Origin: Solitalea lacus
GTDB lineage: Bacteria; Bacteroidota; Bacteroidia; Sphingobacteriales; Sphingobacteriaceae
Reading direction: 5' to 3'
Assembly: GCF_022014595.1 (NCBI RefSeq)
Contig: NZ_CP091740.1
Location: 124,001-188,000 of the forward strand
Length of the DNA: 64,000 nucleotides
Shown: piece after piece, positions 7,929 through 25,038 of the stretch
How the letters are laid out: each line of letters starts with the position of its first letter
Position numbering within the stretch: the stretch's first letter is position 1
The notes under the pieces: model-generated
Database searches by the model: none
What the model saw: the letters and a program-made list of their open reading frames with translations, nothing else
What the model was told of the DNA's origin: nothing
Program-made: the position numbers and the translations under genes

Positions 7929-7963
7929 AAAAAGCAAAACCCCAAACCTAAAGTCTGGGGTAG
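7929..7963 (-). terminator. Probable terminator of the long minus-strand operon
   Basis: CCCCA...TGGGG with further A-T and C-G pairs forms an imperfect 7-8 bp hairpin. On the minus strand it is followed by TTTTGCTTTTT. It lies just downstream of the thioredoxin/TPR gene, the last gene of the run. Confidence 0.5.
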
Positions 7964-7994: not shown

Positions 7995-9362
7995 TTAATG
8001 GGCAGCAGCTTTCTTTTTCATTTTATAAGCCACGAATTTAACCCTGGCCTCATCATTCTTCATTTTCTGAAGTAAAGTTTCGGCATCGGCCAGGTATTCA
8101 TCATTATTCTTCTTCATCTCTTTGACAACGGCAGTTTGTTGTTTTATTGCCATCTTTTTATCGCCAAGGTTATACAATTCCATATTCATGGCGTTAGTAT
8201 AGTAGAAAGAAGCTGGGCTTAGATCTTGAGCTTTTTTATACAACTTTATTGCTAACTCTTTATCCTGCTTTTGATAGGAAAGCTTTAAAAGTAGAGACGC
8301 ATTGGATACACAACCCTGTGCTGCAGAAGCCGAATCGATTGATCGAACAGGTTCAGGTGCATTTTTATCGATAATAATAAAAGTACGATTTATGTTCGTA
8401 GTCTGATCAGCCGGCAAAACGAATCTGGTTATAAATTCGCGCCTTGCCTGTAAAAGTTGAATACTGTCATTTATTGCATTATAGATCTTCATTTTGGTTT
8501 CCAAAATCTTTTTATCTCTTTTCGATTCGTTCAATACAAAAGCACTCAGTTCAGCAATACACTTGTTTAACAGAACTACCTTATCAGCTTTCGACCATTT
8601 GTTACTTCCTATCAATTCGAAAGGTTTATCGAATTCTTTCATTAATTCACGGTCGAGATCAGCGGCTGAAAGACCATCCTTTTTGCACAGCAGGACATCT
8701 ATTGTTTTATAGTTTTTAACCAGGTAATCATATACCTTAACACCTCCGTTAAAGTTTTCACCTAAAAAACACAATTGATCATTTGTAGGATGCTCTGAGA
8801 TGTATTTATTCAAATACTGCTCTAAAGGCCGACTTACAGGAGACCGCTCAGCCTTTAAACGTTTTATATAGTTCTGTAGGAAGACCTCATCATAATTACC
8901 TGAATCAAATCTGGCAGTCATTTCCTTTATGCTGATTTCGGTTTTGCCTGAAAACTTTGCTAACATTTTGTCGGCTACATCTCCAAACGCTGAAGATGAC
9001 ATGGAACTTTTCGATTGCCCAATAAGGGACTCATCCGCCGGATTAATAAATAAATAGGTAGGATATGCCTTTACCTCGTATTTCTTGGCTAGGTCAATCC
9101 CTTCACCCTTTTCAGCATCTATTTTCACATTTATAAACCCTTTGTTGTATTTATCTCCAATTTCAGGTTTCGTAAACACCGTTGAAGCCATTACTTTACA
9201 GGGACCGCACCAACTGGTATAAACATCCACAAAAATGGGCTTATTTTGTTCTTTTGCCTTTTGAACAATTTCCTTCCAAGATGTATGTTCAAACTCAATG
9301 CCTTGAGCCCAAGCTCCCATTGCATTAATTATTAGTAGAAAACTTAAAATCTGTTTTTTCAT
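7995..9362 (-). CDS. Thioredoxin-fold protein with C-terminal helical (TPR-like) region, 455 aa
   Basis: A signal peptide (MKKQILSFLLIINAMGAWAQ) sends this protein to the periplasm. Residues about 22-130 form a thioredoxin domain of the Thioredoxin_7/DUF255-like kind with the redox motif WCGPC (Cys52, Cys55) and the cis-proline segment VKAYPTYLFIN. The remaining 300 residues are mostly helical and end in a TPR-like part (SYQKQDKELAIKLYKKAQDLSPASFYYTNAMN is the kind of repeat seen, here quoted only in outline by position 370-410) and a Lys-rich tail. The likely role is thiol-disulfide exchange on exported proteins. It is the last gene of the sigma/FecR-SusCD block, 24 bases after the protease gene. 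Confidence 0.88.
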   Translation of the reverse strand: MKKQILSFLLIINAMGAWAQGIEFEHTSWKEIVQKAKEQNKPIFVDVYTSWCGPCKVMASTVFTKPEIGDKYNKGFINVKIDAEKGEGIDLAKKYEVKAYPTYLFINPADESLIGQSKSSMSSSAFGDVADKMLAKFSGKTEISIKEMTARFDSGNYDEVFLQNYIKRLKAERSPVSRPLEQYLNKYISEHPTNDQLCFLGENFNGGVKVYDYLVKNYKTIDVLLCKKDGLSAADLDRELMKEFDKPFELIGSNKWSKADKVVLLNKCIAELSAFVLNESKRDKKILETKMKIYNAINDSIQLLQARREFITRFVLPADQTTNINRTFIIIDKNAPEPVRSIDSASAAQGCVSNASLLLKLSYQKQDKELAIKLYKKAQDLSPASFYYTNAMNMELYNLGDKKMAIKQQTAVVKEMKKNNDEYLADAETLLQKMKNDEARVKFVAYKMKKKAAAH

Positions 9363-9386
9363 TTTTTTAAAAAATTGATTTGCATC

Positions 9387-11093
9387 CTATAGGATTATTT
9401 TAGACTCTTTAACAAATTGTACAATTACTTTAGCCGGAATAGCAAGGCTTGTTGTACGGCTGAATCTGGCAATGTTGATTCCGTAAAACTTACCATTGGT
9501 GCCATATAAAGGCCCTCCGCAATCGGCGGGTTTTAATTTGCCATCATGAACCAAGGCCTCTTTAAAATTATCCCGTCTTTGGCTTTTTCCTTCTATAAAG
9601 TGATCAAAAGAACTGTTAGGCGCTACGTAATAATGTTTAAGAACAATATCCTTGGTGTGCGCACTGCCTGACTTTTTAGTGTATTGAAGGGAAACCGATT
9701 GATTAATATCATACTTGGATAATTCCTTTGATAAACCATCGACAGTTAGTATAGGCTCGTTATTTATACTGGTTAACACATCGCCGATCTCAATATCATT
9801 TTCACCTTCCTTAACATTTGCAGCCTTAACGTTTGTCCCTTCAGAATAAAGCGCCGTAACTACAATCTGTTGGGTATCTATATTGAAATTGACACCAACC
9901 CCTAAAAAAGCGGCTGGCGACTTCGGTATTGCTAAAAACCGGTTGCCCAGAACACTCATTATACCGTCCTTTTGCGGTCGTGGGGAAATTAAAAAGTTGC
10001 CAAACTCCGGAAAAGAAACTGAATCAGCATTAATTGGTTGAAGATCAACACCGCCCTTTATTTCCATAGAAACTCCAAGAAGAACCAAATCGTTCTTTTC
10101 ATCACGACTTATCACTTTGGCACTTACAAACTTCCCCGAAACCACTTCAATCAGCGGATGCTCACTTATTTCAGAACTTTTGCTAATGAAGAAACTTTTC
10201 CCCTTTAAATCTGACTCAGAAACTAAGCCCTTCAAATTGACCAGAGTACTCAAAATCGAAGCCTTAAGAACTGAATCCTTTACAGCAAACACTGTTTTCT
10301 GAAATTCTGAATCTTGCGTTTTAAAGCTTGAAATTAATTCAACCATTTCAGGAACAGGTTTCAACTCCGCTTTCTTATCCGGTGAAAACTTATCTTCAGG
10401 AATGAAGGCAGTATGAATTTCAGGGAACTGCAATGCTGTCCAATATTTTCTGAAAACATCTATAGGGGTTTCGAAATTATCCGCTTGGGCATCCCTGATT
10501 CGGCTATGTATGCCAATTACCCTTCCGTTCAGGTCAAAAAGTGGCCCTCCGGAATCTCCAGGCTCCATTAAGCAGGTGCTTTGGATATAACCATTTTCAT
10601 GTAGTTTGTTATAAATATATCCAAACCGCACCGTAGGATTATTGAATCCCAAACTACTGGGACAAGCTATACTAAGGCAGGGTACATTGTTTTCCAATAT
10701 TGAAGACCATCCCATATTTGCCGATGGCCACTTTCCTTTATCGGTAATGACCAGCATGGCGGCATCTACAGAGTTGGAGTTAATCACACCTAAGCCTTTG
10801 GCTCTAACTTGCCGCCCGTCAGTAAAAGTTACCAGGTAAATGGCATTGGGCGTTATAGCATGCCCTGCGGTAAGAATATGTCCCTTCCTATCCACCACCA
10901 CGCCACTGAAATGGCCACCAACTCCTTTTTGGGATTCGGTATTATACGCAATTATGCGAACTGATGCATTATAGGCCTGTTTAATGCCTTGTTTAACTTC
11001 AGCCTGCATTTGCTCGCTATTAAAACTGTTATTTTGAGCAAATGTTGGTTTAAAAATTTGCAGGCAAATTAAAAATGCAAGTAGCTTTTTCAT
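9387..11093 (-). CDS. Periplasmic trypsin-like protease with second, degenerate trypsin-like domain and nested PDZ, 568 aa
   Basis: I start at the ATG at 11093, because the open frame further upstream begins with TTG and this ATG opens a clean signal peptide (MKKLLAFLICLQIFKPTFAQ). Residues about 30-220 form an HtrA/trypsin-like domain with an intact triad: His78 in LTAGHA, Asp110 in NSVDAAM and Ser181 in PGDSGGPL. A second half at about 260-560 echoes it: NDLVLLG (Asp335) and ADCGGPLYGTNGKFYGI, where the nucleophile position is Cys525, with no matching His found. A PDZ-like segment (FLGVGVNF, GDVLTSINNEPI; about 395-485) lies between these two halves of the echo. This suggests periplasmic protein quality control or processing of an imported peptide. 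Being in an operon with four thioredoxin-fold proteins is unusual. Confidence 0.87.
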   Translation of the reverse strand: MKKLLAFLICLQIFKPTFAQNNSFNSEQMQAEVKQGIKQAYNASVRIIAYNTESQKGVGGHFSGVVVDRKGHILTAGHAITPNAIYLVTFTDGRQVRAKGLGVINSNSVDAAMLVITDKGKWPSANMGWSSILENNVPCLSIACPSSLGFNNPTVRFGYIYNKLHENGYIQSTCLMEPGDSGGPLFDLNGRVIGIHSRIRDAQADNFETPIDVFRKYWTALQFPEIHTAFIPEDKFSPDKKAELKPVPEMVELISSFKTQDSEFQKTVFAVKDSVLKASILSTLVNLKGLVSESDLKGKSFFISKSSEISEHPLIEVVSGKFVSAKVISRDEKNDLVLLGVSMEIKGGVDLQPINADSVSFPEFGNFLISPRPQKDGIMSVLGNRFLAIPKSPAAFLGVGVNFNIDTQQIVVTALYSEGTNVKAANVKEGENDIEIGDVLTSINNEPILTVDGLSKELSKYDINQSVSLQYTKKSGSAHTKDIVLKHYYVAPNSSFDHFIEGKSQRRDNFKEALVHDGKLKPADCGGPLYGTNGKFYGINIARFSRTTSLAIPAKVIVQFVKESKIIL

Positions 11094-11138
11094 GTGGTCC
11101 GTCAAAGCACAATGGTTCTTAATAATTAATATTTTACT

Positions 11139-12518
11139 CTATTTGGCCCTTAAAACGGCCTCCGGGTTTTTGCTTAATTCTGAAAGCAATAATTCTTTTA
11201 ATTTCGGATTCGAAGGACGGGGTGCATCAATAGTTACCACGTTTCCCTTTTTGTCGAATACCATGAATCTAGGAATTGCCTCGATTTTATAATCTTTAGT
11301 TATCTTGCTCCAACCGCTGGCAAAAAGTTGAACGCCATCCATTTCCTTTTCCTTAAGCATGGCTTTCCATTTTTGCTTATCCTTTTCTTCATCCAATGAA
11401 ACCGAAATAAATACTACATCCTTTCCCTGTAATTCTTTTTCGAGATTTTTAAGTGAAGGAATTTCCTGCTTACACGGGCCGCACCAGGTTGCCCAAACAT
11501 CCACCAATACCACTTTTCCTTTAAAATCGCTCAATGAAACTATCTTACCGTTTTGATCAGGATAAGTGAAATCAGCGGCAGGTTTTGCTCCGGTTTCGGC
11601 ACTGTAATATTTTGAACCAAGCTTTTCAATAGCTGCCTTTTGGTATTCAGATTGAAAATATTTGCCAAATTTTTCAACTATTTCCTGAAAGCCGGCGTAA
11701 TTTTTCACTCCCTTTATACCCAAAGGACTTCTCAAGATATATGCTCCTTTTACCTTGTCGGAATTAAAGGCGGCAATCTTGTTATCCAAGGTTGACCGGC
11801 CCGGCACGGCATAGTCTGCATACAGGTCCATAAAACGCTTGCCATAAAGGGTTAACAACACATGATCGTTGTTGAATTTATCTTTAACAACAATGGTATT
11901 GTAATATGGAATGAAATCCTCCGTTTTGGGATATTCATTACGCGGGGTACGCAAAAAGTTCAGAGCGTAAAGATCCAAATCATAAACCGTCACTTCTTTC
12001 ATCAACTCATTGAAACCGGTATTTTTGGTATTGATGGTCCTTCTGAATTCTTCAGCTTTGGTTGCAACTTTAGTAAACTCCGGAAAGAAATCACGAAAAG
12101 TGCTATTGTCTGCAAAGTGAAGAGATTTATTCTTCAGGCTTTCCGTCATTTGAGTCCATGACGACAGAATGGTATTTTCAGGAGTTTGCTTACCCACAAA
12201 CTGCATGGTTTTATTATATATTGAAACCTCGGCTTTATCTCCTTTTTTAAAATAAATCGGAAATTTACCTCTTTTAAATTCAGCCCATCCAATGACATAA
12301 AAACCCTCGTATGCAGGAGTAAACAAAAAGCCAAAAGAACCATCCTTCGCCAGATTGGTTTTAGCTACTTCAACCGGCTCACCATCCTCAATCGAGAACA
12401 AGGTAATGTCTTGATCATGATAAAAATCTGACCCTACTGTTCCCCGAATTTCATTCATTTGGGCAAACAATGTGCTGCCAAGCAACATGGCAAAGGCTAG
12501 CATCACTAATTTTTTCAT
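11139..12518 (-). CDS. TlpA-family thiol-disulfide oxidoreductase (copy 1), 459 aa
   Basis: Signal peptide MKKLVMLAFAMLLGSTLFAQ, then an N-terminal beta-rich part resembling the DUF4369 region found before many Bacteroidota TlpA domains, a helical middle, and a C-terminal AhpC/TlpA thioredoxin domain from about residue 315. The redox motif is WCGPC (Cys346, Cys349), with the cis-Pro motif IEAIPRFMVFD. Such proteins are periplasmic and usually reduce disulfides. This is the nearest relative of the copy at 12658; both share the segments GKQTPENT and FFPEFTKVA, so they arose by duplication. A hairpin with a T tract separates this gene from copy 2, so it may be partly uncoupled in expression. Confidence 0.93.
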   Translation of the reverse strand: MKKLVMLAFAMLLGSTLFAQMNEIRGTVGSDFYHDQDITLFSIEDGEPVEVAKTNLAKDGSFGFLFTPAYEGFYVIGWAEFKRGKFPIYFKKGDKAEVSIYNKTMQFVGKQTPENTILSSWTQMTESLKNKSLHFADNSTFRDFFPEFTKVATKAEEFRRTINTKNTGFNELMKEVTVYDLDLYALNFLRTPRNEYPKTEDFIPYYNTIVVKDKFNNDHVLLTLYGKRFMDLYADYAVPGRSTLDNKIAAFNSDKVKGAYILRSPLGIKGVKNYAGFQEIVEKFGKYFQSEYQKAAIEKLGSKYYSAETGAKPAADFTYPDQNGKIVSLSDFKGKVVLVDVWATWCGPCKQEIPSLKNLEKELQGKDVVFISVSLDEEKDKQKWKAMLKEKEMDGVQLFASGWSKITKDYKIEAIPRFMVFDKKGNVVTIDAPRPSNPKLKELLLSELSKNPEAVLRAK

Positions 12519-12566
12519 ATTTATTTAATGCAACCTGTGAGGTTGAGTTTAATTGATTGGCAAAAA

Positions 12567-12600
12567 CAACTACGGCCCAAGGACCGCAGTTGAAATAATG
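12567..12600 (-). terminator. Intra-operon hairpin, possible partial terminator
   Basis: CAACTACGG (12567-12575) pairs with CCGCAGTTG (12584-12592) with one mismatch. Read on the minus strand it is followed by TTTTTGCC, a usable T tract. It lies in the 139-base gap between TlpA copy 2 and copy 1. Confidence 0.5.
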
Positions 12601-12657
12601 AAAGAAATAAAGAACTATTTTGATCAAACAACCTTTAATTGCCTCTTAGACCGTTTA

Positions 12658-14007
12658 TTATAAGCTCTGTTTAGAAAGTTCTTTGAGCAATAACTCCTTT
12701 AATTCCGGTTGTGAAGGGCGAGGAGAATCCAAATTAACGATTTTACCCTCGCGATCGAACACCATAAAACGTGGAATGGTAGCGATTTGATAGAAATCCA
12801 GTAATTCATTTTGAGGGCCGCCGAACAATTGAATACCACCTAATTTCATGTCATTAATCATTTTCAACCATTTGTCCTTATCTTTTTCCTGATCCATAGT
12901 AACACTTACAAAGGCAATGTCTTTATCATGCAACTCCTCTTCCAGTTTTTTCAAGAATGGAAGCTCTTGCTTACAAGGTGCACACCAGGTTGCCCAAACA
13001 TCTACCAAAACCACTTTGCCTTTTAAATCGCTAAATGAAACCATTTTGCCATCTTTATCAGGGAAGCTGAAATTTCTAGCCTGACCGCCTGGAGTTGCCA
13101 TATATAATTTTTGGCCTAAGGCCTTTACTTCTTCTTGAAGACCCGGTGATGTTTTAAGATAGCGGTCGTATTTCTGAACAAATTCCTCGTATCCTGGGTA
13201 AGACTTTATATATGGGGTCCTACTCTTTAAAATATACACGCCTTTTTGATGGTCAGAAACAAGTAAATTCATTTTAGCCTCGTGTGTACCTTTTCCGCCA
13301 AACTCATTCACATATGAAGAAATGAATCTTTCGCCATACATGGTCGACAAAATATCATCATTGGGGTAGTTTTCCTTTTTAATGGTTTTGTAATAAGGAA
13401 TAAAATCTTCCGCTTTTGGATGGACTTTACGTGGCGTATGTCTAAAGTTAAGCGCATAAAAATCCAAATCGAAGTAAGTTACGGAGGTCATTAAACGATT
13501 AAAATTCGCATTCTTTGTTTTAATCGTTTTTCTAAACCCATCCGCCTGGGATGCAACTTTAGTAAATTCAGGGAAAAAGTCTACATAAGTACTCATTGGA
13601 GGTTCGGCAAAATAAACTGCTTTTACCTTTATTTCTTGAGTCAGGTTGATCCACGATGAAAGAACGGTATTTTCGGGAGTCTGCTTGCCGATAAACTTCA
13701 TCCTTTTACCATCAATAGCAATTTCGCTTTTATCTCCTTTTTTAAGGTACAACGGAAACTGACCTGGCATTGATTTACCACTATTACCTACCACAAAGAA
13801 ACCTTCCGCCTCCGGTTCAATCAAGAAACCAAAAGCCCCATCTTTAGATAACCTTGTACTAGCGATCAATTGCATGTCACCGTCTTCAATTTTGTAGAGG
13901 TTGATGGCTTTATCATTCGTATTTTTTGCCACCCCGCGTACTTCACTTAACTGGGCAAATGAAACTTTTGACAGCAACAGCGCGGCAAGTATTAAAACTT
14001 TTTTCAT
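12658..14007 (-). CDS. TlpA-family thiol-disulfide oxidoreductase (copy 2), 449 aa
   Basis: Same plan as its neighbour at 11139: signal peptide ending SKVSFAQ, a DUF4369-like N-terminal part, a helical middle domain and a C-terminal TlpA domain. The redox motif is WCAPC (Cys342, Cys345), followed by IATIPRFMVFD. It follows the third TlpA gene with only 7 bases between, so the two are translated from one mRNA. The CAPC versus CGPC difference from copy 1 may tune redox potential; that is inference. The substrate is unknown. Confidence 0.93.
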   Translation of the reverse strand: MKKVLILAALLLSKVSFAQLSEVRGVAKNTNDKAINLYKIEDGDMQLIASTRLSKDGAFGFLIEPEAEGFFVVGNSGKSMPGQFPLYLKKGDKSEIAIDGKRMKFIGKQTPENTVLSSWINLTQEIKVKAVYFAEPPMSTYVDFFPEFTKVASQADGFRKTIKTKNANFNRLMTSVTYFDLDFYALNFRHTPRKVHPKAEDFIPYYKTIKKENYPNDDILSTMYGERFISSYVNEFGGKGTHEAKMNLLVSDHQKGVYILKSRTPYIKSYPGYEEFVQKYDRYLKTSPGLQEEVKALGQKLYMATPGGQARNFSFPDKDGKMVSFSDLKGKVVLVDVWATWCAPCKQELPFLKKLEEELHDKDIAFVSVTMDQEKDKDKWLKMINDMKLGGIQLFGGPQNELLDFYQIATIPRFMVFDREGKIVNLDSPRPSQPELKELLLKELSKQSL

Positions 14008-14014
14008 TATTTTT

Positions 14015-15376
14015 TTATAATTTCTTACTTAATAGTTCTTTCAAATACACCTTTAGCAGTGGATTTGACGGGCGTTGGCAGCATTTAGCATTCACCATTT
14101 TTCCATCTTTGTCTATTATCAGAAAGCGAGGAATACCTGTTAAGCCCACCTGATTGAAAAACGGATTTTTTCTCATTCCCTCTTTCATGAGTAATTGCTC
14201 ACCCTTAAGATTACGTTTCGTTAAGAACTGCTTCCACAAATTGGCATCATTGTCACCTGAGAGAGAAACGAATACAATGTTTTCGCCTTGCATTTCATGC
14301 TCCAGTTTTTTAACGAAAGGAATTTCGGCTATACATGGGTGACATGAGGTGGACCAGAGATCCATGAAAATATACTTACCCTTATAATCACTAATAGCAG
14401 CAGTACTGCCATCAGGACGCACGAAGGTAAATGCACTCATATCAGTGCCAGGCAATGCGTTAATAAAATTACTTTTCGCTTTTTCAGCCTTTGCAAGGGC
14501 GGCATTTATCTTCGAAATAGTTGCAGGATCTTTTACTAAAGGCATCACTTCTTTAGCTACTTCATTGATAGTAAAAACATCCCCTTCCAATGCAGCATAA
14601 TCTAATAAAGCAACGATATAATCTTCCTTTAATTTTTGGTTTTCAATACTTTTTGCAAAGTTGGCAACCCAGGTATTTATGTTTCTGACGTTCAATTTAC
14701 CGGCATCCATTTTGGCAAACATAAGTTCGGAAATGGTTTTAGACCAGTTGTGATAGTTAACGATTCCCGGAAATAATTGAATATCCAAATCATCGAATTT
14801 AACCTTATTGATCGCGTCTGTTTCGCCAAATACTTTGGATTCCATATAAGGACCAAACACCTTATCAAAATATTCACCCTGGGTATAACCTAATAAAACT
14901 TCCCGGTTACGTACAACTTCTACATTAGTTGAAGCATTGATTTCATTTACACGGTTGTAATAAACCTGTTTTAAAGTATATTGAGGATCATTATAGTCGT
15001 ATTTGTGTGTCAGGTCAAAATAAAACTGGTTTACCTGGCTTCCATTGCCGCTAAAAACAAGTTTATTCTCCTTTACCGAAAGGCTAAGATTATCGCCCGG
15101 ATTTAAGAATACATCAAATCCTCCTTTGAAACGTGGATCAGAAGCCATCAAGTTACAAAAAACTGGCTTTGCTAAATCAGCCTCCATGGCAAAATGACCA
15201 TTTAAAACAGCAGCCTCTGCCAGAAGGATAGGTCTGGAACCCTTAATCCATACGTTAACCTGGGTACATTCTAAAGCATCTCCCTTAATTATCGTTTTAA
15301 CTCCTTCATCTGCTACAGCAGGTAAAGAACTTCCTAATCCGCAAAGTAAAGCGGCATAAACCAAAAATTTCTTCAT
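14015..15376 (-). CDS. TlpA-family protein with CHPC motif (copy 3), 453 aa
   Basis: Signal peptide MKKFLVYAALLCGLGSSLPAVADE, then a beta-rich N-terminal region, a long helical middle, and a C-terminal thioredoxin domain with the motif LWSTSCHPCIAEIPF (Cys345, Cys348). The Trp that normally precedes the first cysteine is Ser, and the dipeptide between the cysteines is His-Pro. Such dipeptides change redox potential strongly in the thioredoxin superfamily, so this copy may be more oxidising than its two neighbours; this is inference. The cis-Pro segment TGIPRFLIID is intact. Two adjacent extra cysteines occur in the C-terminal part (NAKCCQRPSNP). It is first of the three tandem TlpA genes. Confidence 0.92.
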   Translation of the reverse strand: MKKFLVYAALLCGLGSSLPAVADEGVKTIIKGDALECTQVNVWIKGSRPILLAEAAVLNGHFAMEADLAKPVFCNLMASDPRFKGGFDVFLNPGDNLSLSVKENKLVFSGNGSQVNQFYFDLTHKYDYNDPQYTLKQVYYNRVNEINASTNVEVVRNREVLLGYTQGEYFDKVFGPYMESKVFGETDAINKVKFDDLDIQLFPGIVNYHNWSKTISELMFAKMDAGKLNVRNINTWVANFAKSIENQKLKEDYIVALLDYAALEGDVFTINEVAKEVMPLVKDPATISKINAALAKAEKAKSNFINALPGTDMSAFTFVRPDGSTAAISDYKGKYIFMDLWSTSCHPCIAEIPFVKKLEHEMQGENIVFVSLSGDNDANLWKQFLTKRNLKGEQLLMKEGMRKNPFFNQVGLTGIPRFLIIDKDGKMVNAKCCQRPSNPLLKVYLKELLSKKL

Positions 15377-15406
15377 TAAAGTTTTTTAATAAATTGGTGT
15401 AAAGAA

Positions 15407-15431
15407 GCCGGAAGCCGAGATGGCTTCCGGC
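15407..15431 (-). terminator. Perfect hairpin between the PKD-like and TlpA genes
   Basis: GCCGGAAGCC (15407-15416) pairs fully with GGCTTCCGGC (15422-15431) around a 5-base loop. On the minus strand it follows the PKD-like gene stop and is trailed by TTCTTTACACC, a poor T tract. It could be a weak terminator or an mRNA-stabilising element that sets lower expression of the downstream redox genes. Confidence 0.55.
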
Positions 15432-15439
15432 GTAATTTT

Positions 15440-16975: not shown

Positions 16976-17002
16976 GTTTTCTTTTATTAAAATAAACGTT
17001 CA

Positions 17003-17749
17003 TTACTGAGCGGCTGCCGCCATCTTCATTACCGTTACACCATCCGCTTCATAAATAATATTACCCAAGGCTTTTTGCTCATTCAGGTAGCGTTGAGTAA
17101 CTTTAGCATAAATCAGGGCTTCCGAAGTTAACATTGTCTCCATGTATAGTGGAGTTATACTGTTAAGTTGACAGACCAAAAACATTTTTTTTCTGGAGAA
17201 TGGACCATAAAAATTAACATTCATACCCTTTGGCTGCAGCAGCACATCAGTAACCGTAAGCTTTTTAGTTATACATTTCACTACTTTATTAGTTTTTGAA
17301 TTCAAGCGCTGTTTCATATCAGTCTTAAAGTTCTCGTTAGGTAGTAAATTGAAAATGATGCTAAACGTGTTATTTAGCATATCCTGAGTGCGAATCAATC
17401 TAACAGGAATAGTATCCTTAAGGGCATTTTTCTTCATGACAAAAGTTGTAGGCAATTCAAAATGTGTCCCTAAAACAGCCGTTGAACTTGGGTCAATTTC
17501 CAGCTTATACTCCCGATCGTAATTAACCGGAGCACCCACCACTGATACTATCACCTTGTGAACAGAGTCGGTATTTGTGACCTGGGCAAATGATATTGCC
17601 GTCGAATCAATTGCAACTCTAGGGTCCATTGAACCAGCTTCAGTAAAATAAATAGTAGACTCTCCTTCATAAGTCATTAAACCCTTTTCACAAGAGATCA
17701 ATGATCCAACGAACAATAACGCACTAAGTTGATATAATAATTTCTTCAT
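17003..17749 (-). CDS. DUF4843-type lipoprotein, 248 aa
   Basis: The signal peptide ends in the lipobox LISC (Cys20), followed by EKGLMTYEGESTIYFTEAGS, the opening typical of DUF4843 proteins. The middle has beta-sandwich character (HKVIVSVVGAPVNYDREYKL, KDTIPVRLIRTQDML). DUF4843 genes are regularly found between susD and PKD-like genes in Bacteroidota, which is exactly the position here; the molecular function is unknown. It is 11 bases after susD and almost certainly cotranscribed. Confidence 0.88.
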   Translation of the reverse strand: MKKLLYQLSALLFVGSLISCEKGLMTYEGESTIYFTEAGSMDPRVAIDSTAISFAQVTNTDSVHKVIVSVVGAPVNYDREYKLEIDPSSTAVLGTHFELPTTFVMKKNALKDTIPVRLIRTQDMLNNTFSIIFNLLPNENFKTDMKQRLNSKTNKVVKCITKKLTVTDVLLQPKGMNVNFYGPFSRKKMFLVCQLNSITPLYMETMLTSEALIYAKVTQRYLNEQKALGNIIYEADGVTVMKMAAAAQ

Positions 17750-17760
17750 GATTTAAACGA

Positions 17761-19203
17761 TTAATGAAATTGAGATTCAGAAAGAGGAAGAGGAACTACA
17801 TATTTGCTTGCATCCATTGTATATGCTGGAGCACCATCTACACCTGATGGGATAGAGGCTGTATTTGTTCTTTTATAGTAATAGAACAACTGACCCTCTC
17901 CAAAAAACTCCTTTTTATATTCTTTCAATAATTCATTCTTAAAATTAGCAGTTGAGCCAAGGTTAATTAATCCCCTATTGTTCCTTACAGTATTTAAATA
18001 AGCCAGTGCCTGATTTTGATCAAGTTCACACTCAGCAGCGATATAGTACATTTCAGAGATCTTTAACAACGGAATAGTGTTCCTAAAACCTAACTTTTTC
18101 TCTATATCAGCATATTTCTTAAATGTTCGAAAAGTTTTACTAGAATTTGCAGGAACCTCCCAGTGCGGATCATATCTATAATCAGCTGATAATCCACTTG
18201 CATCTGTCTCAAACACACTTGTCAAACTAGCAGTACTTGGCGCAAGGATTACGATATTATCCAATGATGCACCATCAAACAAAGCATTTTGCGTTTTGTA
18301 GAGTTGATCCGTATACGTACCCAATATCATCTCCGTACTGAAAATTCGGTCGGGATTTACTCTTTCATTTTTGTTTGCAAGTGTTGTCCAAGGAAATTTT
18401 GAAGCGTTTTGAATGACAACCTTAGCCGCTGCCAAAGCAATCGCTTTATCTCCTCTGTATAAATTAACCCTGGCTTGTAAGGCTTTAACCGCAAAATAAT
18501 TGAAGCGATAATTTCTATTCACCATAAAATCACTAGAAGTCGACGACATTACACCATTGGTTATTACGGGATCTTTCTCTAATAATTTTTCAGCATTGTT
18601 CAAATCTGTTACAATGTTTTTCATTACCTCATTAGCAGGCAGCAAAGGTCTGGCGACCGAGGACACTGTTTTATCATAAAATGGGATAGAAATTTGTGTC
18701 GAATCAACAGTGCTGTACATCGGACCAAATAAGCGCAGCATGTCAAAGTGAAGCATAGCACGCATAGCTATTGCCTCACCTCTATAAATCGAATCCGTTT
18801 TCGCATCTAAAAGGCCGGGTTTAGCATCCAGGTTTTGTAAAAAGCTATTGATGTTCATAATGGTAGAGTAGGAAGTTCTCCATATGTCCTCCATTTTAGA
18901 CTTCACACCAGCGTCACCATAACTATATATAGAGGTTGGATAATACGCTGTATTTTGGCTGTTTAGGCTATATCGCTGCCCCATCACGTCCACAGTACTT
19001 AATGTAAGGTTCTGTCCATACAAGGAATTACTACCAATTCTGACATACAACCCATTTAAAGCCAGGTTTACACCTTGTTTATTAGCAAAAACAGTTTGTT
19101 CCAACATTTTATCTTCAGGCTGCACATCTAAAAAATTTTGACATGAAGCAAGGCCCAGTAATGCAGCAACCGATATTAATAAGTTTATATAATTTCTTTT
19201 CAT
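17761..19203 (-). CDS. SusD/RagB-family lipoprotein, 480 aa
   Basis: Lipobox LASC (Cys22), then QNFLDVQPEDKMLEQTVFAN, the classic SusD/RagB start. TPR helices include YRGEAIAMRAMLHFDMLRLF and FAVKALQARVNLYRGDKA. The C-terminal part has RNTIPLLKISEMYYIAAE and YLNTVRNNRG. This is of the standard RagB type (SusD-like_3 plus SusD_RagB), different from the SusD-like_2 type used by the other five pairs in the window. It is the substrate-binding lid of the STN-bearing SusC encoded 12 bases upstream. Confidence 0.94.
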   Translation of the reverse strand: MKRNYINLLISVAALLGLASCQNFLDVQPEDKMLEQTVFANKQGVNLALNGLYVRIGSNSLYGQNLTLSTVDVMGQRYSLNSQNTAYYPTSIYSYGDAGVKSKMEDIWRTSYSTIMNINSFLQNLDAKPGLLDAKTDSIYRGEAIAMRAMLHFDMLRLFGPMYSTVDSTQISIPFYDKTVSSVARPLLPANEVMKNIVTDLNNAEKLLEKDPVITNGVMSSTSSDFMVNRNYRFNYFAVKALQARVNLYRGDKAIALAAAKVVIQNASKFPWTTLANKNERVNPDRIFSTEMILGTYTDQLYKTQNALFDGASLDNIVILAPSTASLTSVFETDASGLSADYRYDPHWEVPANSSKTFRTFKKYADIEKKLGFRNTIPLLKISEMYYIAAECELDQNQALAYLNTVRNNRGLINLGSTANFKNELLKEYKKEFFGEGQLFYYYKRTNTASIPSGVDGAPAYTMDASKYVVPLPLSESQFH

Positions 19204-19215
19204 TATTCTTAGATT

Positions 19216-22200
19216 TTAGAATGAGGCCCTTAAACTGAATGAAACTGAACGGGCAAACGGATATTCTATACCTCTTTCACGTTTAACGGTAGAAATTCTA
19301 ACGATATCATTGGTATATGCAGAGAAATTCAAACTACTCATCCCAATGTTCTTAACCCATTTTGCATTTTCGAAGGTGTAGCCTGCACTGATCGATTCGA
19401 AAGAAAAAACATTTTCCTGCTGTACAAATCGCGACGACATTTCAGTTGCGTCTGTTAAGGAAATGCCCTTAAACTGTGTTATATCACCCGACTGTTGCCA
19501 ACGATCATAAAGGGCTCTTTTATCCTGGTTTAAAGAAAGTTGAGCATAAGAAATGTTTTCAACTTTATTAAATAAGGCTGTATTAATGATATCTGCTCTT
19601 TGACTATATCTCATAGACATATTGACATTGAACCCTTTGATTCTAATCGCGTTAGTAATGATCCCTTGAATAAGAGGATCTGTATTTCCAATACGTTGGA
19701 TGGCGGCCTTATTATAATCGAACGTATATTCACCGGTTGATGTTAGGAACATTTCACGGCCTGTTCCGGGATCAATACCCAAAGACTTTGCAGCCCAGAT
19801 ATCCGAAGGACTGTATCCATCCTGGAAACGGAGATAAGTTTTATTCGCCTCTTGGGTCTTATTCAAAGAAGCCAATGAGTTGCCAAACCCGCCGTAACTG
19901 CTATGTGTATGGCTTCCTGTTAAACTTATCGTCCAATTGATTCGGCTCTTAAGGTCCCTGATTACATTATAAGCAATCCTCGTCTCAATACCATTGGTTA
20001 TAAGATGGCCTAAATTTTCCTGGTGATTAACAAGACCTGTTGAAGAAGCATTGTTAACATTAACAACAAGATTTTCTGTGTATTTATTATAAAACTGAAA
20101 ATAACCACTAAACCTATTATTAAACAAACCGAAATTAATACCGGTACTCAGCTGATAGGTCTTCTGTGCTTTAATATCAGGATTTGCAACCGAAGCTATA
20201 TTTACTGCTCCCCCGAATTTGTTATAGCTTGAATTATAATTATAAACAGTTGATGAAGCAACGCTTCCAAAGTTTTGATTACCCGTAGCTCCAAAATTCG
20301 AATGAATCTTTAAGTTATCTAACCAGGAAATACCTTTAATGAACTTTTCATTGGAAAGATTCCATCCTATACCGGCTGCATAATAAGGCGACATCCTTTG
20401 GTTAGTACCATAAGAGGTTGAACCATCTAAACGATACGATGCATCAAAAAGAAATCGTCTATCATAAGAATAGTTAGCAGATACCAATGTGTTAGCAGTT
20501 CGATATACAGTTTGTGCTGCTGATGGTTTATTTAAATTATCATACCCAAAAGCAAATCGGGGGTTTCCGTTAGTTCCTGATGGGAAACCCACGAAAACGG
20601 TACCTAAAGAGTTGTTAATACGGTGACTCAATTCAGTACGGGCATTCGCAGTAATAGAATGCTTACCTAATACTTTTCCAAAACTTAATAATGCATTCCC
20701 TGTATATGAAAGGCTTTCTGATTTATTATTTTGAGACCTTCCTTTAAGGGTAAAATCAACATTTTCGTACTTTGTATTGTCAGGGGAGGTAAATACTGTA
20801 GAAGAACTTTGTCCTTTAGCTATTTGAAAACCTCCGTCTAAGCGTAATTCCGGCAATATTTCATACCTAACATTCATATTGTTTGAAAGATCTAAACCTT
20901 TGCCTGTATCATATGAGCTTAGCAAAGCATTATATAAAGGATTGCCAACGTTCAGAGTGATAATTTGAGCTGCATTTAGACCAGGGGCTTTGGATTGCTC
21001 AAGCCAGCGGGCGTTCGGATCCTTTGTATAATAAGGATTTAGGCTTGCATAGGTAGAGAAATCACCGTAAGGTGATTCTGCACTAGAAGTACCGCTTACA
21101 GAAAAATTATTGGTGATAGAAAACTTTGATTTGCGATAAACTAAATTCATATTTCCGCCCCAGGCATCACGACCCGACCCTTTCATTACCCCGTCTTGCT
21201 TTCTGTAATTAAATCCAACACCATATTGAAGATTTTGATCGCCACCGCTCACTGAAAGTGAATTATTATCAGTAAATGCAGTACGAACAGGTTCGTTTAA
21301 CCAATAAGTATCCACACCTTGTTTAACTGTAATAAGATGGGTATTGTACAATTGATCCAAATAAATCTGATCTGCAGCATCAAGAGGAGCTGTATATCTT
21401 CCTGAAAGCTTTTCGAACTGGAGTTTTTCAGTTGAATTCATTAGGTTATATACTGTCAAATCAGGAGCCGCTACGCTTAAGTCATTGCTATAGGAAAACC
21501 GGAGTTTACCTTCTTTAGGTTTTACTGTTTCAACAACCACCACGCCATTGGCCGCTTTTGATCCGTATAAAGCCGTAGAGGCCGCATCTTTCAGGATGAC
21601 TACTGATTGTATACGGTTCATATCCAAATCAATAATTCTTTGAAGGGTGGTTTCAAAACCATCTAAAATGAATAATGGTTGATTGGGATCCGAGGCAAAT
21701 TGATCTTGTAAAGTCAAGCCTGATGCTCCGGTTTTACCGCGTATTTCAATTACTGGTGTGCTGTTCGGATCCGATCCTTTTAAATTATTTTCAACAACGA
21801 TAAAAGCAGGATCTAATGCTTTTAAGCTTTGTATTAAATTGCTGTTCCCGATGGCTTTTAATTGTTCACCGGTATAAGTAGCTGTAGCACCGGTAAAAGT
21901 TTTTGCATCACGGTTGATACCGGTACCTGTTACTACAACTTCATTAATCTTAAGCTGGTTCGGCTCAAGCTTAACCGTCATTTTAGCTTTCGCAGGAACT
22001 TGCTGGCTGCGATAACCGATAAATGAAAAAGAAAGCACCGCATTTTCTGGTACATTCTTCAAGATAAACTGACCTTTTGCGTCGGTTTGAGTTGCAATGT
22101 TGGAACCTTTAACTACGATGTTAACACCAAGCATTGGTGCTCCTGTTTCGTCAATTACCTTGCCGATAATATCCTGGCTGGGGCGTTGTGTCTCATTAGA

Positions 22201-22572
22201 GTTAATTGAAGAACCTGCCTCTTTTGAGGTTTTAATGAGAATGTATTTATCATTAACCTCAAATTGAAGGCTTTTGCCTTTTAATACCAGCTTCATCACT
22301 CCTTCAACTTCTTCACGATTAAAATCAACAGAAATTTTTTCCTGATCATTCAATACATTGTTGTTGTAAAAGGCGACCAAGCCTGTTTGTTTTTTAACTT
22401 CCGCAAGCACTTTTGCAATGCTGATGTTATTTGCTTTAAATGTTACCAATGCTTTAGGTTGATAAGCAAGGGCATTCATCGAATTACAAATAAGAAACAG
22501 CAAAGCTAGCAGAGCAGCTAAACGTCGACTACCTCGTAAGCCTTTCATTAATTGTAAAGTTTCTCCATTCAT
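19216..22572 (-). CDS. SusC/RagA-family TonB-linked transporter with N-terminal STN signalling domain, 1118 aa
   Basis: Domains in order: a signal peptide (about 1-36), an STN (secretin/TonB short N-terminal) domain at about 40-115 (ISIAKVLAEVKKQTGLVAFY, KYILIKTSKEA), a CarboxypepD_reg domain at about 133-215 (GKVIDETGAPMLGVNIVVKG), the plug (KINEVVVTGTGINRD, LKDAASTALYGSKAANGVVV) and a barrel ending SVSFSLRASF. The STN domain is the hallmark of transporters that signal through a FecR-type anti-sigma factor. A fecR-like and an ECF sigma gene lie directly upstream on the same strand, so this transporter is the probable sensor of that pathway. It is the first gene of a run of nine. Among the six SusC proteins here it is the only one with STN. 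Confidence 0.95.
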   Translation of the reverse strand: MNGETLQLMKGLRGSRRLAALLALLFLICNSMNALAYQPKALVTFKANNISIAKVLAEVKKQTGLVAFYNNNVLNDQEKISVDFNREEVEGVMKLVLKGKSLQFEVNDKYILIKTSKEAGSSINSNETQRPSQDIIGKVIDETGAPMLGVNIVVKGSNIATQTDAKGQFILKNVPENAVLSFSFIGYRSQQVPAKAKMTVKLEPNQLKINEVVVTGTGINRDAKTFTGATATYTGEQLKAIGNSNLIQSLKALDPAFIVVENNLKGSDPNSTPVIEIRGKTGASGLTLQDQFASDPNQPLFILDGFETTLQRIIDLDMNRIQSVVILKDAASTALYGSKAANGVVVVETVKPKEGKLRFSYSNDLSVAAPDLTVYNLMNSTEKLQFEKLSGRYTAPLDAADQIYLDQLYNTHLITVKQGVDTYWLNEPVRTAFTDNNSLSVSGGDQNLQYGVGFNYRKQDGVMKGSGRDAWGGNMNLVYRKSKFSITNNFSVSGTSSAESPYGDFSTYASLNPYYTKDPNARWLEQSKAPGLNAAQIITLNVGNPLYNALLSSYDTGKGLDLSNNMNVRYEILPELRLDGGFQIAKGQSSSTVFTSPDNTKYENVDFTLKGRSQNNKSESLSYTGNALLSFGKVLGKHSITANARTELSHRINNSLGTVFVGFPSGTNGNPRFAFGYDNLNKPSAAQTVYRTANTLVSANYSYDRRFLFDASYRLDGSTSYGTNQRMSPYYAAGIGWNLSNEKFIKGISWLDNLKIHSNFGATGNQNFGSVASSTVYNYNSSYNKFGGAVNIASVANPDIKAQKTYQLSTGINFGLFNNRFSGYFQFYNKYTENLVVNVNNASSTGLVNHQENLGHLITNGIETRIAYNVIRDLKSRINWTISLTGSHTHSSYGGFGNSLASLNKTQEANKTYLRFQDGYSPSDIWAAKSLGIDPGTGREMFLTSTGEYTFDYNKAAIQRIGNTDPLIQGIITNAIRIKGFNVNMSMRYSQRADIINTALFNKVENISYAQLSLNQDKRALYDRWQQSGDITQFKGISLTDATEMSSRFVQQENVFSFESISAGYTFENAKWVKNIGMSSLNFSAYTNDIVRISTVKRERGIEYPFARSVSFSLRASF

Positions 22573-22775
22573 AAATAATAGTTAGGTTAAATTTTGCTTG
22601 ATTTGAATTCAAGACAATAAAATTTTGAAAACGGGTGACAACAACTTTTTTTTTCAGATAAAAATTTCTCAATTAGCTATAAATCAAAACTAAACACTGA
22701 AAATTTCATCTTAACCCATTGTCAACTAAATCATTAACATCTATTTGACAATACTAATTAAGATTAGCGGAGAAC

Positions 22776-22811
22776 AGCATGGACTAAAAATGGAATAGCA
22801 TGGACTAAAAA
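22776..22811. repeat. Two 15-bp direct repeats spaced by two helical turns
   Basis: AGCATGGACTAAAAA occurs at 22776-22790 and again at 22797-22811, start to start 21 bases. This puts both copies on the same face of the DNA about 200 bases upstream of the STN-susC start. It is a candidate operator or ECF-promoter element. Confidence 0.7.
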
Positions 22812-22889
22812 ATAAAAAGACCCCAATGACCGGAGTCTTTAAATTAAGATTAAAGAATTACGAATTCTCTTTAAGAATAATTTCATAAA

Positions 22890-22922
22890 ACACAGAGAGC
22901 CCCAAGAAGGGGCTCTCTGTGT
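22890..22922 (-). terminator. Terminator after fecR-like gene
   Basis: A perfect 14-bp stem (ACACAGAGAGCCCC with GGGGCTCTCTGTGT) and a 5-base loop. On the minus strand it is followed by TTTATGAAATT. It lies 27 bases downstream of the fecR-like stop codon and separates the regulators from the transporter operon. Confidence 0.88.
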
Positions 22923-22949
22923 TAAGGTTAAAACTAATTATGAAAATCT

Positions 22950-24119
22950 TTATCTCTGTTTACTAAGCACAACAGTATTATTATCGTTTATTGTGTATTG
23001 AAGCCTTGAGGTGATGGTTAAATTTTCCAAGAATTGCTTTAATGGTTTATCTTTTTCAATAGCTCCTGAAATTTTAACACTTTGAACGCTTGAATCGGCA
23101 ATCTCTATTCTCACATCATACCAACGCTGAACAATTTCAGCAATTTCTTTAATGTCAGCATTATTAAAAAAGTAAATGCCATTCATCCATGAAAGCTCTT
23201 GTTGATCATCAAACCAATTTTGAGTGAACCCGATCCCGGTTGTATAAGTTGCCATTAGCCCAGGTTTCAGCAAGGACTCTTCACCGTGAGCATTCAACTT
23301 TACTGATCCTTCTACCAACGCCACCTTCAAGGCTTCTTTAAAATAGCTATTTACATTAAATGAAGTACCCAACACCTGAACATCCACGTCATTCACTTTT
23401 ACAATAAAAGGTTTTTCCGCATTCTTCGTTACTTTAAAATAAGCTTCTCCTTTTAAGTAAACTATACGATTCTCGTCTCCAAATTCGAGGGGGAATTTTA
23501 ATTCCGAATCAGAGTTGAGCCAAACTTCAGTGCCATCAGAAAGCTTTATTTTATAATCTTTTGTACGGGGGACTATTAAAGTATTATAATTCAATGCATG
23601 CTGTTGACCCTTCGATTCATATTTTAAAGCGCCTTGCTCATTATGCAAAACAGCAGTAGCAGTGTTTAACGTTTTATTTTGGGCGATTTGATCTAAGGCA
23701 ACTGATTCACCAGTGGTCAATATCAGTTTTACGTTGTCTTTATTTTGAGCAAATTGAAACTGCTGATCTTTTGAGAAATAGTTTCTTAATACGAAAACAG
23801 TAACGATTGCAAGTGGTAATAAAACCGATGCGGCCACCAACCATCTTTTTAAATTTATGAACTTGACCGTTTTCGGCATTTCAACTTCTGGAGTCATTAC
23901 CGAATTGATTTTGTTCCAGGCAGCATTCTGATCTATCTTGCTTAAAAAGGTGGCAGCTTTGGCTCCGCGGAATGATTCGGCATAGTCGCCATAAAGCTCC
24001 TTTACCTCTTCATCCTCGTTTATAAATCTAATCAACAACTCGCTATCCTCCGAAGAGATTTCGCCCGTTAGCTGATCGATGATCAATTGTTCAATATCTT
24101 CTTTATAATTTCTTTCCAT
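22950..24119 (-). CDS. FecR-family anti-sigma factor, 389 aa
   Basis: The N-terminal cytoplasmic part (about 1-80) should bind the sigma factor. A single membrane helix follows at about 91-110 (WLVAASVLLPLAIVTVFVL). The periplasmic part contains the FecR domain: YNTLIVPRTKDYKIKLSDG, EVWLNSDSELKFPLEF, VYLKGEAYFKVTKN and VNDVDVQVLGTSFNVNSY. The C-terminal end is a DUF4974-type domain (FFNNADIKEIAEIVQRWYDV) that resembles an STN fold and is thought to meet the transporter's STN domain. It would hold the ECF factor inactive until the SusC reports ligand. It sits 61 bases after the sigma gene. Confidence 0.94.
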   Translation of the reverse strand: MERNYKEDIEQLIIDQLTGEISSEDSELLIRFINEDEEVKELYGDYAESFRGAKAATFLSKIDQNAAWNKINSVMTPEVEMPKTVKFINLKRWLVAASVLLPLAIVTVFVLRNYFSKDQQFQFAQNKDNVKLILTTGESVALDQIAQNKTLNTATAVLHNEQGALKYESKGQQHALNYNTLIVPRTKDYKIKLSDGTEVWLNSDSELKFPLEFGDENRIVYLKGEAYFKVTKNAEKPFIVKVNDVDVQVLGTSFNVNSYFKEALKVALVEGSVKLNAHGEESLLKPGLMATYTTGIGFTQNWFDDQQELSWMNGIYFFNNADIKEIAEIVQRWYDVRIEIADSSVQSVKISGAIEKDKPLKQFLENLTITSRLQYTINDNNTVVLSKQR

Positions 24120-24180
24120 CCTAGTTATTTGGTAGACATTTTTTTTTAACTAATGGGTGACAAAAAATAATACTATTTTT

Positions 24181-24711
24181 CTATTTAAAACTAGCCATCT
24201 GTTCCCTCATTTTGGAAAAAGCCCTTTTTAATTGAGTCTTAATGGTATTAATGCTAACCCCTATTTCATCTGCAGCTTCCTGATATTTTTTATTTTCTAA
24301 AGCAACAATAGTGAAAACCAACCTACATTGATCAGGCAATGTTGAAAGAGCCTTGTCAATGCGGTATTGCAATTCTTTATTTTCTAATACTTTATCTGAA
24401 TTTTCATCTGCAACAAAATCAGCATCTTCAAGTGCCAATTCAACATAGGTTTTTCTTTGTTTAATACGATTTAAACAGATATTTCTAATTGCAGATTTTA
24501 AATACGATTTTAAAGAGGTTTCGATCTGGAAATATTGCTTTTCCTGCCATAATTTAAGAAAAAAAGCTTGTACGACATCCTCAGCCTCTTCGCTATTATT
24601 TAATAAGAAAAAAGCTTGCAAACAAAGCTGCTTATAATATTTATCAAATAAATTCTTGAACCCTGCGGCTTCATCAGCCTTTAATTGTTCAAGTATCAAA
24701 ATATCATCCAT
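24181..24711 (-). CDS. ECF RNA polymerase sigma factor (FecI/RpoE-like), 176 aa
   Basis: Standard two-domain ECF sigma factor. Region 2 is visible at about residues 10-80 (FKNLFDKYYKQLCLQAFFLL, AEDVVQAFFLKLWQ, LKSYLKSAIRNICLNRIKQR) and region 4 at about 110-170 (LPDQCRLVFTIVALENKKYQ, AADEIGVSINTIKTQLKRAF). It should direct transcription of the STN-susC operon when released by the FecR-like protein encoded next to it. Two 13-bp direct repeats lie 58-109 bases upstream and may be part of its control. Confidence 0.95.
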   Translation of the reverse strand: MDDILILEQLKADEAAGFKNLFDKYYKQLCLQAFFLLNNSEEAEDVVQAFFLKLWQEKQYFQIETSLKSYLKSAIRNICLNRIKQRKTYVELALEDADFVADENSDKVLENKELQYRIDKALSTLPDQCRLVFTIVALENKKYQEAADEIGVSINTIKTQLKRAFSKMREQMASFK

Positions 24712-24882: not shown

Positions 24883-24887
24883 ATTAG

Positions 24888-24959
24888 TGGTCCCTACAGG
24901 AATCGAACCTGTACCCTGAGAACCGGAATCTCATATTCTATCCATTAAACTAAAGGACC
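24888..24959 (-). tRNA. tRNA-Arg (anticodon CCG)
   Basis: Read on the minus strand it folds as a cloverleaf: acceptor GGTCCTT/AGGGACC with one G-U, D arm GTTT...GAAT, anticodon stem TGAGA/TCTCA with loop TTCCGGT (anticodon CCG, codon CGG), T arm with GGTTCGATTC, discriminator A. The CCA end is not encoded (CTA follows). Confidence 0.93.
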
Positions 24960-24963
24960 AATG

Positions 24964-25038
24964 TGGTAGCCCGGACGGGAATCGAACCCATATCTAAAGT
25001 TTAGGAAACTTCTATTCTATCCATTGAACTACCGGGCC
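24964..25038 (-). tRNA. tRNA-Arg (anticodon CCT), CCA end encoded
   Basis: Minus-strand cloverleaf with acceptor GGCCCGG/CCGGGCT, D arm GTTC...GAAT, anticodon stem GAAGT/ACTTT with loop TTCCTAA (anticodon CCT, codon AGG), T arm with GGTTCGATTC and discriminator A followed by a genomic CCA. It lies 4 bases upstream of the second tRNA, so both are processed from one transcript. Confidence 0.93.

Follow-up and report, generated by a model that had tools for sequence, protein, structure and literature searches.

Gene content of the locus

We analysed a locus in a 64,000 nucleotide stretch of the Solitalea lacus genome (contig NZ_CP091740.1, positions 124,001 to 188,000; hereafter the window), which encodes an outer membrane SusC/SusD (SusCD) pair together with regulators, additional lipoproteins, thioredoxin-fold proteins and a protease. 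Between positions 7995 and 24711 eleven genes are located on the minus strand, all of them open and intact. The first codes for an extracytoplasmic function (ECF) sigma factor (24181-24711; TIGR02985 135.8 bits, cut-off 126.4). It is followed by the genes for a FecR-type anti-sigma factor (22950-24119; FecR 67 bits, FecR_C 59.9 bits) and for a SusC/RagA-type TonB-dependent transporter with an STN signalling domain (19216-22572; TIGR04056 521.9 bits, cut-off 368.25; STN 36.6 bits), for which RagA (6sli) is the top PDB sequence match (E 9.9e-52). A gap of 12 bases separates susC from the gene for the SusD-type lid lipoprotein (17761-19203; SusD-like_3 57.6 bits, SusD_RagB 33.8 bits), after which a DUF4843 lipoprotein (17003-17749; 74.7 bits) and a lipoprotein with an N-terminal PKD-like domain and a beta-propeller (PKD_2; 15440-16975; 84.9 bits) are encoded. 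The remaining genes code for three TlpA-like proteins of the Redoxin/AhpC-TSA/Thioredoxin_8 families with the motifs CHPC (TlpA1, 14015-15376), CAPC (TlpA2, 12658-14007) and CGPC (TlpA3, 11139-12518), for an HtrA-like trypsin/PDZ-like protease (TRYP; 9387-11093; Trypsin_2 83.4 bits) and for a periplasmic thioredoxin with the motif CGPC (Trx; 7995-9362; Thioredoxin_7 54.7 bits). The three TlpA genes are separated by 7 and 139 bases.

An earlier note on this DNA had listed the same genes, from the sigma factor to the thioredoxin, on one strand, with gaps of 7 to 139 bases among the three TlpA genes, and coordinates and family profiles confirm this list. The note had also called the SusCD locus fused to the protease and the thioredoxin-fold proteins; the genes are merely neighbours and nothing is fused. 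For the TPR part that it gave to the thioredoxin, no TPR family was matched at E <= 0.001. By eye, lipoboxes were recognised in SusD, DUF4843 and PKD_2, and signal peptides of the ordinary kind in Trx, TRYP and the three TlpA proteins; therefore, the locus appears to encode a surface module and then a periplasmic module. SusC contains one cysteine and SusD two, while DUF4843 and PKD_2 have cysteines beyond the one of the lipobox. Family profile scans identified no carbohydrate-active enzyme among the eleven genes.

Conservation of the gene set

S. agri and S. longa both have the whole gene set with unchanged order, 63-84% identity per gene (75-78% for the sigma gene) and different flanks; in S. 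longa the thioredoxin gene is doubled. The TlpA2 and TlpA3 copies of these two species are 49-51% identical to the respective other protein of this pair in the window. A fourth Solitalea genome contains a cassette with a 33%-identical TRYP together with FecR, SusC, SusD, DUF4843 and TlpA, a match to PKD_2 in the corresponding position and the nearest sigma gene in opposite orientation. The SusC-like gene of this cassette consists of two overlapping frames (L037, 13556-16863; loci are given by their L numbers), perhaps owing to a frameshift or a sequencing error.

In a search blind to the neighbouring genes, one genome per species (84,980 species) was scanned with an alignment of TRYP, and the best 80 of 99 relatives were analysed. 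They are mostly from Pedobacter, followed by Mucilaginibacter, Chitinophaga, Flavobacterium and a few others. A sample of the family comprised 301 genomes from 25 genera; TRYP relatives (E <= 1e-20) occur in 70 of these genomes, the S. lacus genome among them, and in 6 of the genera. TRYP could be oriented in 78 of the 80 loci (L089 and L104 were excluded), and the same-strand runs of these 78 contain SusC in 58, SusD in 60, DUF4843 in 56, PKD_2 in 56 and TlpA in 60 cases. In a strict count, DUF4843 and PKD_2 are both located upstream of TRYP in the same-strand run in 52 of the 80 loci, from Pedobacter, Mucilaginibacter, Flavobacterium and Chitinophagaceae; L046 is arranged likewise but was lost to a position filter, and in L088, L094 and L105 DUF4843/PKD_2 follow TRYP, which accounts for the difference between 56 and 52. 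SusD is present in all of the 52, one to five TlpA/Trx genes lie between PKD_2 and TRYP in every one, and a TlpA gene directly precedes TRYP in 49. FecR is located before SusC in 25 of the 29 strict loci with complete SusC; the four exceptions have a SusC gene that starts no more than 609 bases into the examined stretch.

Pairwise distances of SusC, SusD, DUF4843 and PKD_2 correlate with r 0.98-0.99 (up to 53 cassettes, 39 with complete SusC; uncorrected for kinship), as might be expected for the components of one complex. For TlpA and TRYP the correlation is r 0.60. Two Pedobacter genomes have two cassettes each (L058/L080 and L060/L086), and there SusD, DUF4843, PKD_2, TlpA and TRYP pair by cassette and not by genome. 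Identities in this comparison are 77 and 82% for TRYP and 86 and 84% for TlpA, and only 35 and 50% for PKD_2 and 30 and 53% for DUF4843. Such fast-changing surface proteins next to steady periplasmic enzymes would fit a diversifying ligand recognition combined with common processing. Both the recurrence of DUF4843, PKD-like, TlpA and trypsin-PDZ genes in the 52 loci, which the earlier note had proposed to look for, and the joint inheritance in the two-cassette genomes support its claim that the redox/protease tail belongs to the SusCD genes.

Peptidases in sibling loci of the same genome

The S. lacus genome contains five DUF4843/PKD_2 loci, each with SusC, SusD and TlpA genes. Their tails encode different peptidases: the trypsin/PDZ peptidase (S1) in the window, an S46 peptidase and a transglutaminase-like protein in L151, a dipeptidyl peptidase IV (DPP IV) of the S9 type in L152, a retropepsin-like protease in L153 and two Met-zincins in L154. 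This exchange of peptidases favours a peptide or protein as substrate. As a control, 27 other SusD regions of the genome were used, two of which (L179 and L181) share one tail and seven of which have no gene in the immediate run. The Pfam scans of the controls covered 40 unlabelled genes among the first five of each run, a 101-residue frame and the doubled tail being left out; the count of TlpA genes excluded more distant ones and those separated by genes on the opposite strand (L177, L183, L184, L186). Two control regions encode a peptidase, M60 (L172) and Mx1 (L176), and the other scanned tails contain glycosidases, phosphatases, sugar-binding modules, ATP-binding cassette (ABC) genes and unrelated genes. 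TlpA and a peptidase thus occur together in five of five DUF4843 loci versus none of the 27 control regions (Fisher p 5e-6, or 6e-6 with 26 controls, since two of them share one tail).

Altogether, DUF4843 loci were found at 31 places, of which 21 were examined (the window locus and 20 others); a further two places correspond to the orthologues in S. agri and S. longa. A peptidase is encoded in the tail of 12 of the 21 (window, L151-L154, L156-L159, L161, L167, L168), several of which are orthologues within Solitalea, and the loci from other genomes add M16, Met-zincin or Asp peptidases. Some SusCD tails also contain an ABC transporter with an ABC_transp_aux domain, which we take to be of the gliding type. 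It is found in the DUF4843 loci L162, L165 (by eye) and L168, in the last together with the M16 peptidase, and in the control region L186.

The protease, the propeller lipoprotein and the thiol-disulfide proteins

The TRYP frame opens with a TTG at 11105, the ATG at 11093 being the likelier start; residues are numbered here from the TTG. The catalytic triad H82/D114/S185 is intact and present in 81 of 81 sequences, the stretch just before the serine being part of the scan pattern. Three cysteines are conserved as well, C143 in 78, C178 in 81 and C529 in 75 of these sequences, the count for C178 being biased because the scan pattern included its region. The first approximately 230 residues were modelled as an HtrA protease (pLDDT 86) with Z 24.8 to HtrA1, Rv0983 and AlgW; the model also resembles DegP, DegQ and DegS. 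The trypsin part of the trypsin/PDZ protein named in the earlier note is confirmed, while its PDZ part stays below the Pfam cut-off (PDZ_2 25.6 versus 27 bits, E 1.5e-5), and some structural alignments extend to residue 489, but with an rmsd of 16-18. Near the C-terminus a degenerate copy of the catalytic-serine loop was detected, with CGGP for DSGGP (31 columns, E 3e-5, probability 73). A global alignment of the N-terminal with the C-terminal half of TRYP revealed nothing, the match being limited to the 31 columns around the serine loop. TRYP shares the protease fold and the triad with HtrA/Deg proteases, but differs from them by the long extra C-terminal part with this motif.

DUF4843 and PKD_2 gave no significant match in PDB sequence searches with single sequences and profiles. 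In the model of PKD_2 (pLDDT 86.5), residues 133-511 approximately form a beta-propeller, and residues 136-511 align with BtuG1 with Z 23.2 and rmsd 3.7 over 297 aligned residues. Like the BtuG proteins, PKD_2 is predicted to be a beta-propeller lipoprotein encoded beside an outer-membrane transporter; unlike them, it has an extra N-terminal PKD domain, is only about 8-10% identical and accompanies SusCD instead of BtuB. The TlpA proteins belong, like TlpA/ResA thiol-disulfide proteins, to thioredoxin fold families with a CxxC motif, and a role as reductases is predicted for them. One DsbD_TM protein is encoded in the genome and is a plausible electron source for TlpA and Trx.

Two further genes accompany TRYP cassettes. 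A protein of approximately 620 residues is encoded beside the TlpA genes of the Pedobacter cassettes L070, L072, L073, L075, L076, L078, L080 and L086; the one member scanned has a C-terminal DsbD_N domain and is without a Pfam match over its first 500 residues. An extra gene of approximately 470 codons is located beside TRYP or TlpA in L064, L080, L086 and L116, and the scanned member (L080) codes for an alpha-L-fucosidase, which would fit glycopeptide substrates.

Promoter-like motifs and terminator-like hairpins

The ECF-type promoter-like motif TTGTCACCC-N17-GTCT was spotted by eye upstream of fecR (24134-24163) and upstream of susC (22612-22641), on the minus strand in both cases. With spacers of 15-18 bases allowed, these two are the only exact copies in 4.4 Mb; the reversed pattern gave none, and of a shorter form of the motif 0.01 matches are expected in the window. 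S. agri has the exact motif before both genes, S. longa before susC, with two changes and unchanged spacing before fecR. In two sibling DUF4843 loci the region where fecR begins contains TTGTCACCC-N17-GACT and CAATCACCC-N17-GACT, the latter nearly identical in S. longa. These sequences suggest a common -35 element combined with a sigma-specific -10 element. The signalling chain of STN-SusC, FecR and ECF sigma factor that the earlier note had drawn is backed by the motif before fecR and susC, from which we infer that both genes depend on the sigma factor. In the S. lacus genome, FecR is located before SusC in three of the five DUF4843 loci (window, L152/L198, L153/L199). With one mismatch eight sites are obtained, three of them copies of one repeat; with up to two mismatches there are 47 sites compared to 58 for the reversed control, and thus no wider regulon can be read from the motif. 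A second TTGTCACCC-N17-GACT is located at position 1381 of L198 (1205880 in the genome), approximately 360 bases before the sigma gene of this sibling locus; no target gene was recognised.

The genome motif scans revealed no copy upstream of the TlpA genes. These are therefore probably transcribed at a lower level by read-through or from an unrecognised promoter; a sigma-70 promoter scan was uninformative (58 sites, 57.8 expected). The terminator scan found 19 sites with 13.6 expected. Terminator-like hairpins on the minus strand are located after fecR (22816-22840), between the PKD_2 gene and TlpA1 (15407-15431), between TlpA2 and TlpA3 (12567-12592) and at the end of the locus (7939-7961). 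The two inner ones, after PKD_2 and after TlpA2, are conserved in the three species. All 10 pairs of the PKD_2/TlpA1 hairpin are retained, two of them altered on both sides; this covariation is statistically unsupported by three sequences, since 111 of 500 shuffles equal the two double-sided changes. The conserved inner hairpins speak for a punctuated operon and against one uniform transcript, the arrangement that the earlier note had considered for nine genes.

In Pedobacter and Mucilaginibacter cassettes (L067, L077, L083, L092, L103 and similar ones) a common leader is located between fecR and susC, in which a GC-rich hairpin and then a GCAGC...GCTGC-type hairpin before an A/T run were recognised by eye. 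It is unlike the Solitalea arrangement and could represent tandem terminators or a regulated leader RNA.

A proposed self-regulated locus for peptide or protein utilisation

Gene content, conserved gene order, the promoter-like motif before fecR and susC, the intact catalytic residues and the recurrence with exchanged peptidases are the observations on which our interpretation builds. On balance we lean towards a self-regulated locus for the utilisation of peptides or proteins, with surface capture, import by SusCD, autoregulation, reduction and cleavage. At the cell surface, a peptide or small protein would bind to a putative complex of SusC, SusD, DUF4843 and PKD_2. SusC might signal this occupancy through its STN domain to FecR, which would free the ECF sigma factor to drive the fecR and susC promoters. 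SusC, powered by TonB, would bring in the ligand, and the TlpA and thioredoxin proteins, with electrons from a DsbD-type membrane protein, could reduce its disulfides and/or keep the cysteines of the protease in the right state. TRYP would then cleave the imported ligand in the periplasm. Expression of the periplasmic genes is probably reduced, relative to that of the surface complex, by the two inner hairpins. The earlier note had suggested a disulfide-containing peptide or protein as ligand; the peptidases of the sibling tails favour a peptide or protein, and the interpretation of the note as a whole is partly supported.

Several observations weigh against this interpretation. DUF4843/PKD_2 are missing from the run in 22 of the 78 loci with oriented TRYP, among them several lone Chitinophaga copies, which shows that TRYP also lives elsewhere. 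The earlier note had named TlpA-protease genes apart from SusCD genes as evidence against their linkage, and they occur in this minority, the other 56 loci keeping DUF4843 and PKD_2. Of the 24 loci among the 80 without both DUF4843 and PKD_2 in the examined stretch, eight still have SusC and eight TlpA. Distances of the surface module correlate less well with those of TRYP (r 0.74-0.80) and of TlpA (r 0.59-0.87) than among its own members. TlpA/Trx genes are found in the immediate run of seven of the 27 control SusD regions, where no peptidase was detected, so that TlpA is not specific to proteolysis. Nine of the 21 DUF4843 loci (L155, L160, L162-L166, L169, L170) have no peptidase in their tails, of which L169 ends at a contig edge and the genes were scanned in part; some of these tails contain ABC genes, GH2 or GH18-like genes, and thus peptide use need not hold for every DUF4843 locus. 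Nor is the FecR/sigma switch universal, since no FecR gene was found before SusC in the examined stretches of L151 and L154/L201. The two sibling loci with a motif before fecR have no detectable motif before susC. Finally, the nearest structural matches of the modelled PKD_2 propeller are lipoproteins for B12 capture, BtuG1-3 and BtuK1 (Z 20.6-23.2).

Alternatively, the tail could serve envelope quality control, TRYP and the thioredoxin-fold proteins folding, repairing or clearing the surface lipoproteins and SusC of the locus itself, so that the ligand need not be a peptide. The HtrA fold of TRYP, the TlpA/Trx genes behind SusD in control regions without DUF4843 and the additional cysteines of DUF4843 and PKD_2 would agree with such a function, but SusC and SusD are almost cysteine-free, and sibling tails carry S46 and DPP IV exopeptidases and Met-zincins, which to our knowledge are not known as folding factors; we consider quality control unlikely. 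STN-FecR-sigma chains are classic for metallophores, and together with the BtuG-like propeller this raises the question whether the ligand is a cofactor, a metallophore or a peptidic natural product that the tail strips or releases after import. Since propellers are a generic fold, here at 8-10% identity, and the unlike peptidase types recurring in the siblings fit general peptide use better, such a ligand seems improbable.

TRYP might also act on the regulators themselves, as a site-1 protease of the DegS kind whose cleavage of FecR would activate the sigma factor, for which its DegS/AlgW-like fold with a PDZ-like part and the FecR gene before SusC in 25 of 29 checkable cassettes could be cited. 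We regard this as very improbable: TRYP is absent from at least four other sigma-FecR-SusC loci examined in the genome (four candidates for the protease part were scored, of which three matched, one being TRYP itself over its length), its signal peptide looks cleavable, its gene is located near the far end of the locus, and 20 of the 24 TRYP loci without DUF4843/PKD_2 have no FecR gene in the examined stretch.

Relation to known systems

SusCD utilisation loci are known, and the locus described here is a variant of them, in which a surface module is linked to thiol reductases and exchangeable peptidases. This linkage, including disulfide reduction tied to nutrient uptake, was not found in full-text searches of an open-access library, which leaves most subscription journals outside. 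For most of the many SusCD pairs in environmental Bacteroidota a substrate has yet to be assigned, and glycan import is the usual assumption. The window locus resembles polysaccharide utilisation loci (PULs) in that regulator, SusCD, accessory surface lipoproteins and then periplasmic enzymes are encoded in one locus, but its enzymes are a protease and thiol reductases. With FecI/FecR cell-surface signalling it shares the union of a transporter STN domain, FecR and an ECF sigma factor.

PMC7782687 and PMC8048996 report oligopeptide ligands for the SusCDs RagAB (Porphyromonas gingivalis) and BT2261-64 (Bacteroides thetaiotaomicron), and P. gingivalis has periplasmic S46/S9 dipeptidyl peptidases (PMC8048996); together they provide the precedent for the peptide utilisation proposed for the window locus. 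The SusC/SusD pair is common to these systems; the window locus adds STN, FecR, the sigma factor, two more surface lipoproteins, thiol reductases and a protease, and its putative peptide ligand is suggested by the neighbouring peptidases. The PusCD phosphate loci of Flavobacterium, as described in part of PMC8115612, are SusCD loci with FecR/ECF genes whose enzymes likewise reveal a non-glycan substrate class, with phosphatases in place of the peptidase and TlpA proteins. The mucin locus BT4240-50 (excerpts of PMC11992087) is a SusCD locus including a peptidase as well, there a surface M60 mucinase with glycosidases, compared to a periplasmic protease with reductases and no glycosidase in the window.

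More tentatively, and with considerable doubt, the loci could represent a modular class of PUL-like peptide utilisation loci in Bacteroidota, with a co-evolving SusC-SusD-DUF4843-PKD_2 module, mostly a FecR/ECF switch of their own, an exchangeable peptidase of any clan and built-in thiol reduction. A single genome would then contain a set of such loci with different target proteins for each, and in the TRYP branch the reductases might also gate the protease via its conserved cysteines. If DUF4843/PKD_2 marks SusCDs fed by peptides or proteins, gene content would reveal the class of substrate, and the use of proteins by environmental Bacteroidota could be tested locus by locus. If peptide or protein utilisation is the correct interpretation, disulfide reduction would be tied to nutrient uptake.

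Neighbourhood of the locus

Two tRNA-Arg genes (ccg, cct) are located directly upstream of the sigma gene (24887-25038). A mobile history of the cassette is possible, because the neighbours of the cassette differ in S. agri and S. longa. Farther upstream (31886-54321, minus strand) the window contains several SusC-SusD pairs in tandem, with small genes between them.

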